Assembly: GCF_040144835.1 (NCBI RefSeq) | Contig: NZ_CP151632.1 | Location: 2,480,001 to 2,544,000, forward strand | DNA length: 64,000 nt | From: Microbacterium sp. LWS13-1.2 | Lineage (GTDB): Bacteria > Actinomycetota > Actinomycetes > Actinomycetales > Microbacteriaceae | Direction of reading: 5' to 3' | Part shown: piece by piece, positions 1,609-58,295 of the stretch | How the letters are laid out: the number at the start of each line of letters is the position of its first letter | Numbering within the stretch: position 1 is the stretch's first letter | Notes under the pieces: generated by a model | Seen by the model: only the letters and a program-made list of their open reading frames with translations | What the model was told of the DNA's origin: nothing | Database searches by the model: none | Program-made: the position numbers and the translations under genes

Positions 1609-1688
1609 CCTCAGATGAGGAAACATGCCGAAATGCGGAGCGAACGGCCTGTTGAGCGCCTCATCTCGGCTCACGTCCTCAGTTGAGG
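1609..1688 (-). repeat. 80-bp inverted-repeat element, family A copy 1 (reverse orientation)
   Basis: This 80-bp intergenic unit begins with CCTCAGATGAGG and ends with CCTCAGTTGAGG, two near-palindromic 12-mers. Its reverse complement aligns with the copies at 45758, 45920 and 47149: the GAGCCGAG-N-TGAGG block follows the first box, and a CGCATTTCGGC block precedes the last box. An extra half-box AGTTGAGG lies at 1591-1598. It sits between the tail-to-tail HAD and aldo/keto reductase genes, so it could also act as a terminator or RNA-stability hairpin. I see no target-site duplication. Confidence 0.8.
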
Positions 1689-38817: not shown

Positions 38818-38870
38818 CTCTGCGCTACGAGGTCCTCGTCGCGGGGAGTCGGATCGTCGGCGATCGAGGA

Positions 38871-38982
38871 TCACGGTCGTTGAGCGAGCGAGGAACGACC
38901 GGGACTCACGGTCGTTGAGCGAGCGAGGAACGACCGGGACTCACGGTCGTTGAGCGAGCGAGGAACGAGCGAGACGAAACGC
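38871..38982. repeat. Three tandem copies of a 35-bp intergenic repeat
   Basis: Copies start at 38871, 38906 and 38941, each beginning TCACGGTCGTTGAGCGAGCG. The third changes into GAGCGAGACGAAACG near its end. The array fills the gap between the convergent FGE and HAD genes. The core CGTTGAGCGAGCGA resembles a repeat I know as common between genes in Microbacteriaceae. Confidence 0.88.
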
Positions 38983-45757: not shown

Positions 45758-45837
45758 CCTCATTTGAGGAACTGAGCCGAGTTGAGGAGCAGAATGCGGG
45801 TGTCGGCCCGCATTCCGGCGCTGATCCTCAGTCGAGG
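45758..45837 (+). repeat. 80-bp inverted-repeat element, family A copy 2
   Basis: It begins CCTCATTTGAGG and ends CCTCAGTCGAGG, 80 bp in all. The 56 bp between the end boxes differ from copy 3 at one position. An inner hairpin AATGCGGG-N6-CCCGCATT is present. It starts 8 bp after the cls terminator. The 82 bp between copies 2 and 3, and the 185 bp from copy 3 to the next gene, hold no open frame that I would trust. Confidence 0.88.
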
Positions 45838-45919
45838 CACGCTGGCGACAAGCGGCGGCGTCGAGCTCGAGCGCGATCCATCCGGTCGCGCGCGGGCGGT
45901 CCACGCCGTGGGCTGTGCC

Positions 45920-45999
45920 CCTCATTTGAGGAACTGAGCCGAGTTGAGGAACAGAATGCGGGTGTCGGCCCGCATTCCGGCGCTGATCCTCAACTGAGG
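45920..45999 (+). repeat. 80-bp inverted-repeat element, family A copy 3
   Basis: It begins CCTCATTTGAGG and ends CCTCAACTGAGG. It lies in direct orientation 162 bp after copy 2, and is almost identical to it, so one probably arose from the other recently. It ends 185 bp before the start of the AbiEi/DUF559 gene. Confidence 0.88.
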
Positions 46000-46184
46000 A
46001 CCCAAGTGGTGATGCCGTCGGACGGGACCGAGAGCAGCGCCTCATTCCGGCGATCCATGCTGCGGCGAGAGGGATGCCATGGCCAGCGCCAACGCCTCCT
46101 CCACAGTCGCTGCCCGACACGGTCTGTCACCAGAACCGGCCTGGAGCACCGCCTGCGATCCTGCTCGCGCGCGAGGCTCGAATC

Positions 46185-47051
46185 GTGCAGACGACCATCG
46201 ACCCGGCATGGCTGACCACGCTGCGAGAACATGACGGCATCGCTCGCCAGTCCCTGCTTCTCGGCCGGCAGACGAGCAAACGCGAACTCAAGGATGCCGT
46301 CGCGAGCGGTGCGCTCGTGCGCATCCGACGATCCTGGCTCGCTCTGCCCGATGCCGACCCACTCCTGGTCGCCGCCGCCCGCGCAGGGGTTGCACTCAGC
46401 TGCGTCACGCGTGCGGAGCGGCTCGGGCTGTGGGTCCATGGAGACTTCACGAAGCCTCACGTTGCGGCGCCGCCGTGCTCGGGTGGGGTTCGAATCGAAC
46501 AGGACGACGCGGACAATCCGAAGGCGACGGTGCATTGGTTCACACCGGTCGTGCCACGGCCACCGCACACCCTCGAGGACGGCATCGAGAACACGCTCAT
46601 CTCGATCGCATTGTGCCGGCCTTTCGAATACGCACTCGCCACGTGGGAGTCGGCGTTCCGCACCGGCCTCGCCGATCGGGAGGTGATAGGGCGGCTGAAG
46701 CTGCCGCGGATCGCGCGCGACCTGCTCAGCGAATCCACTCCGTTCGCCGACTCCGGGCTCGAAACGATCGTGCCGCGCCGACTTCGTTGGCTGCGAGTGC
46801 GGATCGTGCCGCAGGCATGGCTGCACGGCCATCGCGTCGACTTCCTTCTCGGACAGCGGCTCGTGCTTCAGATCGACGGCGGCCACCATGTGGGCGCGCA
46901 GCGTGATTCAGACAACCGTCACGACGCCGAGCTCATCCTCCGTGGCTATCACGTCATCAGGGTTGGCTATCGCCAGGTCATGGACGACTGGCCCGGCGTG
47001 CAGCAGCTGGTGATGAACGCGGTCGCGCAGGGTCTGCACCTCGCTCGCTGA
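46185..47051 (+). CDS. AbiEi-like wHTH plus DUF559 (Vsr-like nuclease fold) protein
   Basis: 288 residues. The N-terminal 95 residues resemble the AbiEi antitoxin winged helix (LTTLREHDGIARQSLLLGR, VASGALVRIRRSWLALPDADPLLVAAARAG). The C-terminal third is DUF559, a Vsr-like PD-(D/E)XK nuclease fold: HRVDFLLGQRLVLQIDGGHH, RHDAELILRGYHVIRVGYRQVMDDW. The Glu usually before the DG is Gln here, as I recall in many actinobacterial members, so activity is uncertain. The GTG at 46185 gives the normal family length. No AbiEii toxin gene is adjacent. Three 80-bp family A elements bracket it closely, two upstream and one downstream. Confidence 0.82.
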   Translation: MQTTIDPAWLTTLREHDGIARQSLLLGRQTSKRELKDAVASGALVRIRRSWLALPDADPLLVAAARAGVALSCVTRAERLGLWVHGDFTKPHVAAPPCSGGVRIEQDDADNPKATVHWFTPVVPRPPHTLEDGIENTLISIALCRPFEYALATWESAFRTGLADREVIGRLKLPRIARDLLSESTPFADSGLETIVPRRLRWLRVRIVPQAWLHGHRVDFLLGQRLVLQIDGGHHVGAQRDSDNRHDAELILRGYHVIRVGYRQVMDDWPGVQQLVMNAVAQGLHLAR

Positions 47052-47077
47052 GCGCCACAGAGCTCGAGCCGGGCCGC

Positions 47078-47104
47078 CGCCCGCCGCCGCCGCCGCCGCC
47101 GCCG
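47078..47104. repeat. (GCC)n trinucleotide tract
   Basis: About nine GCC units with one interruption lie just after the AbiEi/DUF559 stop codon and 45 bp before element A4. A simple slippage-prone repeat; no gene runs through it on the coding strand. Confidence 0.85.
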
Positions 47105-47148
47105 GAGGAACATACGCGGCTTCGCCCGCAGAAGTCGGTTCTCGCGGT

Positions 47149-47228
47149 CCTCAATTGAGGATCCGAGCCGAGGTGAGGAATGAACAACGCCACAGCACCC
47201 TCATTTCGGCGCACATCCTCAGTTGAGG
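47149..47228 (+). repeat. 80-bp inverted-repeat element, family A copy 4
   Basis: It begins CCTCAATTGAGG and ends CCTCAGTTGAGG, again exactly 80 bp. The GAGCCGAG-N-TGAGGA and CATTTCGGCGC blocks match copies 1-3, while the middle has drifted. It lies 98 bp after the AbiEi/DUF559 gene, in the same orientation as copies 2 and 3. Confidence 0.85.
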
Positions 47229-58228: not shown

Positions 58229-58295
58229 ACAGGTCAACCGCATTTCCACAGGAGATCCGGTTGCCGAACGTCCTGTACAAGCCCGGTTGACCTGT
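58229..58295. repeat. 67-bp inverted-repeat element, family D copy 2
   Basis: The ends are a perfect 12-bp inverted repeat ACAGGTCAACCG (58229-58240) and CGGTTGACCTGT (58284-58295). Inside, ACAGGA and TCCTGT form a second, nested inverted repeat. It aligns over about 50 bp with the element at 8117. It lies between the convergent amidohydrolase and YjbR genes. Confidence 0.75.

Follow-up and report, generated by a model that had tools for sequence, protein, structure and literature searches.

A DUF559 nuclease gene of Microbacterium flanked by short dyad elements: a possible REPtron-like partnership

DUF559 nuclease genes of Microbacterium and of other genera are linked to short palindromic elements. 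Different genes have different elements, and these occur as dispersed, discrete units with sharp ends. We describe one such gene and its elements in a stretch of 64,000 nucleotides from Microbacterium sp. LWS13-1.2 (here called the window), which corresponds to positions 2480001-2544000 of a 4,326,447-base contig. Members of the genus Microbacterium are soil bacteria. We have hardly any doubt that the association of gene and element is real, and we lean towards reading it as a REPtron-like partnership of a nuclease gene with its own family of short dyad elements. That the encoded protein binds the element is probable in our judgment; for movement of the element by the protein we see roughly equal chances either way.

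The nuclease gene and its elements in the window

Three elements of exactly 80 bp bracket the DUF559 gene, two upstream and one downstream, and their length, positions and arrangement are as given in a preliminary description of this DNA (Table 1). All eight matches to CCTCANNTGAGG with at most one mismatch in the window are ends of the four 80-bp elements, which confirms the paired palindromic ends described earlier; 100 dinucleotide shuffles of the window gave a mean of 1.81 and a maximum of 5 matches. The outer palindromes have the form TCCTCANNTGAGGA with a start-to-start distance of 68-69 bp, and the inner arms approximate GCCGARATGMGG ... CCTCATCTCGGC. Relative to shuffles, z scores for folding as single-stranded DNA were -4.3 (element at 45758), -7.8 (45920) and -6.1 (47149), and -3.1 or -2.7 for the solo element at 1609-1688. 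Rfam gave no match at E<=0.1 between 45500 and 47400, and a known RNA family at the DUF559 locus was rejected on this ground.

Two details of the preliminary description need correction. The near-identical pair, said to differ at one inner base, is the pair at 45758 and 45920, and its differences comprise one inner position and three at the right end. A fourth copy does lie far off, as stated, but not recognizably reversed: it has 26-30 mismatches to the other window copies as read and 25-28 when reversed, and its covariance model score is higher on the plus strand. Since the element is a dyad, the orientation of the 80-bp copies means little.

Table 1. Coordinates of the nuclease gene and of the dyad elements in the window
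Feature	Position	Strand	Remarks
DUF559 (Vsr/EDxHD-like) nuclease gene with predicted AbiEi-like fold	46185..47051	+	288 aa
Dyad element copy 1, upstream of DUF559 gene	45758..45837	+	80 bp; covariance model match
Dyad element copy 2, upstream of DUF559 gene	45920..45999	+	80 bp; 4/80 positions unlike copy 1
Dyad element copy 3, downstream of DUF559 gene	47149..47228	+	80 bp
Dyad element, solo copy	1609..1688	.	80 bp; elements at matching place in G105 and G129
Sister-family element copy, inverted CAGGTCAACCGC half-sites	58230..58294	.	Cognate DUF559 gene at 1286180

The element at 58230-58294 belongs to a second, unrelated dyad family, and its cognate gene lies 1.25 Mb off. In intergenic-looking DNA at 38861-38975, a unit of about 35 bp (TCACGGTCGTTGAGCGAGCGAGGAACGACCGGGAC) is repeated three times head-to-tail.

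The reading frame of the nuclease gene could start at an ATG at 46074, which adds 37 residues, or at the GTG at 46185; aligned relatives start at or after 46185. According to the ORF list the gene stands alone between the elements, and the adjoining long ORFs continue other genes. Its assignment as an AbiEi/DUF559 protein was upheld for DUF559, which Pfam detects at 28.5 bits (cut-off 20.6). Pfam finds no AbiEi domain, and this half of the assignment is suggested by a weak PADLOC match (AbiEi, E 0.0012; a homing endonuclease also matched weakly, E 0.0053) together with the predicted fold, in which an AbiEi-like part is joined to a nuclease of I-Bth0305I/Vsr type. The catalytic domain is thus predicted to have the EDxHD homing endonuclease / Vsr fold. 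Among 41 aligned proteins D219, D231 and D243 are invariant and E193 nearly so. One search returned 1,895 relatives at E<=1e-10, a large protein family to which the association described here gives a context; where the 120 matches listed carry a name, it is a generic one (endonuclease domain, DUF559, very-short-patch-repair endonuclease, AbiEi family). The named close relatives come from Microbacterium, and a scan of the named genome contigs gave four loci with relatives of the gene. NCBIfam had no match for the four DUF559 proteins of the own genome.

Association of gene and elements within and beyond the genus

In its own genome of 4.33 Mb the window family is a set of dispersed, mostly intergenic palindromic repeats, as in a REPtron. 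There are 16 full copies at 11 places, including the three that bracket the DUF559 gene; 12 of the 16 overlap no called gene, three overlap one by 6-18 bp and one lies within a crude ORF call. With up to one mismatch allowed, a search for the outer palindrome gave 36 places, and the reversed control gave 5. Arrays with shared element ends exist, and three elements lie at 1071353. At one locus (L044, 5003-5096) four degenerate outer palindromes with a spacing of 27 bp run into a full element, and solo palindromes are also aligned at another (L042, 2963-3027).

Four DUF559 genes were found in this genome at E<=0.01. Each of the other three (at 291584, 1286180 and 3935276) has private dyad repeats in both flanks, which differ from gene to gene. 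Family counts cover the window gene and those at 1286180 and 291584. For the 1286180 gene a half-site pattern with at most three mismatches had 29 matches and its control none; we pair the 29 half-sites into some 15 elements, of which four lie no more than about 0.6 kb from the gene. For the 291584 gene a palindrome with at most two mismatches was found at 10 sites, three beside the gene, and again not in the control. The PF01797 (Y1 transposase) profile, with control matches in 5 of 14 genomes, matched nothing in the own genome, on which ground we rejected a Y1/RAYT transposase acting in trans. None of the conserved columns of the 16 aligned window-family copies holds a GTAG-type tetranucleotide.

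Relatives of the window protein were detected at E<=1e-30 in 125 of 149 genomes of the genus. A covariance model of the window element, built from 15 copies, matched 42 of the 149 at E<=1e-3. Nine genomes had a best model E below 1e-17, the next best genome reaching 3.3e-10, and a gene relative at >=68% identity was present in five genomes, all among these nine. Element counts from the model are lower bounds that saturate, because at most 30 candidates per genome were scored. At E<=0.01 the model matched 15 of the 30 best gene loci.

A model-free test compared the roughly 500 bp on the 5' side of each gene with as much on the 3' side, at a threshold score of 18. It was reached at 27 of the 30 best loci and, among 335 controls drawn from genes of the fetched regions, at 6; the only two controls scoring above 25 were other DUF559 genes of the own genome. 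In the extended set 70 of 91 loci reached the threshold, including 7 of the 10 most distant added loci, and the remaining 21 had no flank repeat at this score. The 91 loci are the 30 best, 60 added (flank pairs scored throughout, read by eye in part) and three own paralogues, less two loci truncated at a contig end, L197 (score 70) and L204 (14.5), which are still part of the set of 93 used for dyad symmetry. The best flank pair of L126 and of L130 is a terminator, and that score was kept in both counts; both loci nonetheless have elements on both sides, and these real copies were used in the Mantel test described below. Flank repeats had a median length of 76.5 bp. Of the 93 loci, 52% had dyad symmetry of at least 14 in the 5' flank and 63% in the 3' flank, compared with 10% of control flanks and 0.5% of shuffles. 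As in REPtrons, then, the cognate gene stands directly beside a cluster of its own repeats, at 70 of 91 loci and at all four genes of the own genome.

The association extends to other genera. In the class, 50 of 296 genomes had a match to the family profile; they belong to 24 of the 105 genera, the own genus among them. Among 20 non-Microbacterium loci with full flanks, 11 had a repeat pair scoring at least 18, as did 5 of 380 mismatched pairs; ten scored at least 20, a value attained by none of the mismatched pairs (maximum 19.5). The other nine loci had no flank repeat at threshold. Two loci with short flanks (L274, score 14.5; L277, score 11) were left out, and their inclusion gives 11 of 22. 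Repeats are thus enriched near DUF559 genes in the own genome, in the genus and in other genera, which is what the preliminary description had proposed to check.

In a Mantel test on 2,168 non-syntenic pairs, protein and element sequences were correlated to a small degree (rho 0.14), a value equalled or exceeded in 1 of 200 permutations. When the other domains were held, no single domain stood out as tracking the element, with values as high in 38 of 300 permutations for the N-terminal, 19 of 300 for the middle and 15 of 300 for the C-terminal domain. We rejected protein-element coevolution, since no domain stands out and most close gene pairs share their locus by descent. A supposed independent place of the window gene in G064 (L116) was also rejected, being the same place on a reversed contig. 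Another locus of that genome (L118, contig C9) matches the window both ways about a centre, in the manner of a fold-back assembly artefact.

Dispersal and copying of the elements

Two genomes other than the own one were searched for dispersed copies of a gene-flanking element. In G229, from another genus of the family, the gene-flanking element occurs at 15 distinct places at E<=0.01, and in G120 at 14 places; each of these element families is absent from five relatives, congeners in the case of G120. In the four G229 and four G120 copies that were read, similarity ends near the outer arms, except that the two gene-flanking copies of G120 are alike for about 20 bp more. The loop, which lies outside the dyad, is also common to the G229 copies read. 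With such sharp ends and a shared loop, the elements look duplicated as units rather than as sites that arose one by one. At G229:C1:1314371-1315506 two copies with about 1 kb between them stand beside none of the listed DUF559 genes, and this pair is perhaps a second or lost carrier locus.

For the window family, identities were compared among 77 elements of nine genomes, a set that is incomplete for every relative and omits the second element of the fold-back contig. Far copies in the same genome have a mean identity of 0.66-0.73 and at best 0.84 (averages over the eight genomes with at least four elements). Neighbouring copies reach 0.94-0.95. The earlier suggestion of recent copying therefore holds between neighbours only, and the far copies of this family are old. 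Many solo elements stand at matching places across species. One place is occupied by elements in G000, G049 and G100 and is free of them in G105; target-site duplications and clean empty sites could not be read, because intergenic DNA between species is too diverged.

It had also been proposed to test whether genomes lacking the gene lack recent copies, and this part goes against the link. Four of the nine element-rich genomes (G028, G100, G101 and G129) have no gene relative at >=68% identity, and two of them, G129 and G100, hold neighbours 94-95% alike; neighbours in the gene-bearing G105, G061 and G064 are at most 0.78, 0.71 and 0.71 alike. Near-identical neighbours are thus no commoner where the gene is present, which slightly lowers our overall confidence. 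At the place that corresponds to the gene, the neighbouring genes of G129 are separated by 9 bp, and G101 has neither gene nor full element. G100 has a different ORF of 330 aa there (L156, minus strand 308-1300), with flanks weakly alike (score 17); Pfam gave no match above cut-off for it, and it was rejected as DUF559-like. Far copies about 70% alike, fresh copies in tandem and the close gene missing from four of nine genomes all count against recent movement of the window family. The proposed REP/RAYT-like link accordingly stands as regards enrichment at DUF559 genes and is weakened by the four element-rich genomes without the close gene.

Likeness to known systems and possible mechanism

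REP elements are dispersed, mostly intergenic palindromes that cluster beside a cognate low-copy gene, with several private pairs per genome (PMC3116915, PMC8266576). The present system is alike in its dispersed palindromes, in their clusters at a low-copy gene and in having several private gene-element pairs per genome. It differs in the enzyme, a predicted AbiEi-like/Vsr-type nuclease where RAYT is a HuH Y1 transposase, in having about 7-16 copies instead of hundreds, in the larger, four-site dyad element, and, for the window family, in the lack of GTAG in conserved columns. We hold that the DUF559-element pair would work like a REPtron without being a member of that group, given its other enzyme, missing GTAG tag and few copies.

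Under the REPtron-like partnership that we favour, the encoded protein would combine an AbiEi-like winged-helix part with a homing-type nuclease of the Vsr/EDxHD kind. The element, of about 66-82 bp, may be viewed as an array with two-fold symmetry on which two or four protein molecules could fit. In its fullest form each half would comprise an outer site, a spacer and an inner site, and the loop would lie between the two inner sites. Paired inverted repeats are bound by AbiEi proteins (PMC7319586), and the target on which I-Bth0305I forms a dimer is nearly 60 bp long (PMC3943268); the present gene differs from I-Bth0305I and Vsr in being free-standing on the chromosome, in its other DNA-binding half and in its linked repeated elements. 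It is rather likely that the protein reads the repeated sites through its winged helix and that the upstream copy serves the gene's own control. The nuclease may then nick or cut DNA, either at the element or at a target, and in the course of repair or replication the element could be copied into intergenic DNA or local arrays could grow longer. The gene would in this way spread its sites in trans, much as REPs are thought to be spread by RAYTs. For this second part, nicking or cutting followed by copying, we would put the chances at about even.

Another reading, which we regard as unlikely, is that the AbiEi-like domain binds the elements as operators and the gene represses itself, the nuclease moving no copies and the dispersed ones being kept by selection for regulating other genes or for chromosome structure. 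AbiEi antitoxins autoregulate through inverted repeats in their promoters, four of them in the case of Rv2827c (PMC7319586), and the elements here remain where the close gene is gone. In 13 orthologous element groups the sites are 0.927 identical (1285/1386), a figure inflated by the fact that elements were found by their sites, against 0.598 for spacers (355/594) and 0.654 for loops (487/745); site identity is 0.917 where at least one genome lacks the gene and 0.95 where both have it. That the sites are kept while the spacers have changed so much speaks for constraint or homogenisation. An operator role accounts poorly for the copies found 3' of the gene as well, at a median of 37.5 bp past its end, for the G229 copies that look duplicated as units, and for families missing from the relatives of G229 and G120. 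The protein also differs from the type IV antitoxins AbiEi and Rv2827c in its predicted fusion to a nuclease and in repeats that are downstream as well and dispersed; in the ORF list of the window no AbiEii-like toxin gene was seen beside it.

The elements are short, discrete, dispersed and lineage-specific units with inverted ends, and as such might be MITEs, the non-autonomous ends of an unseen transposon with the nuclease gene as a frequent neighbour or cargo. We consider this improbable: the gene between the copies is of one family in the genus and beyond, each with a different element. No parent transposon was seen in a transposase profile search that covered PF01797. Spread by slippage or recombination, with genes adjoining by chance or inheritance, would suit the descent of most close gene pairs from a shared locus and the tandem origin of neighbouring copies even without the gene. 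It is very improbable given that only 6 of 335 control genes show the pattern, which recurs with different sequences at different loci in several bacterial families. A defence role, in which DNA without the elements is attacked by the protein as foreign and the elements label the cell's own, or in which the protein is a solitary anti-phage nuclease, would agree with the weak PADLOC matches and is likewise very improbable, as some 15 copies per genome clustered at the gene are ill-suited to a genome-wide mark.

Returning to the REPtron-like partnership, a broader proposal is that actinomycetes have REPtrons of their own without a HuH transposase, in which an AbiEi-like/homing-type nuclease would copy a four-site element in lineage-private pairs, several per genome; we advance it tentatively, at somewhat less than an even chance. 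The pattern suggests that a resident gene accompanied by its private population of elements, the way of life of REP/RAYT, evolved anew around an unrelated nuclease. The loci also provide a large set of natural protein-site pairs from which one could learn how DNA might be read by an AbiEi-like domain. Among open-licence papers, surveyed through titles, abstract openings and search terms, we found none that connects REP-like elements with DUF559 or with nucleases of this type. At 53 of the 70 loci with flank repeats the copies on the two sides of the gene are directly oriented, a skew that a model of movement should explain.
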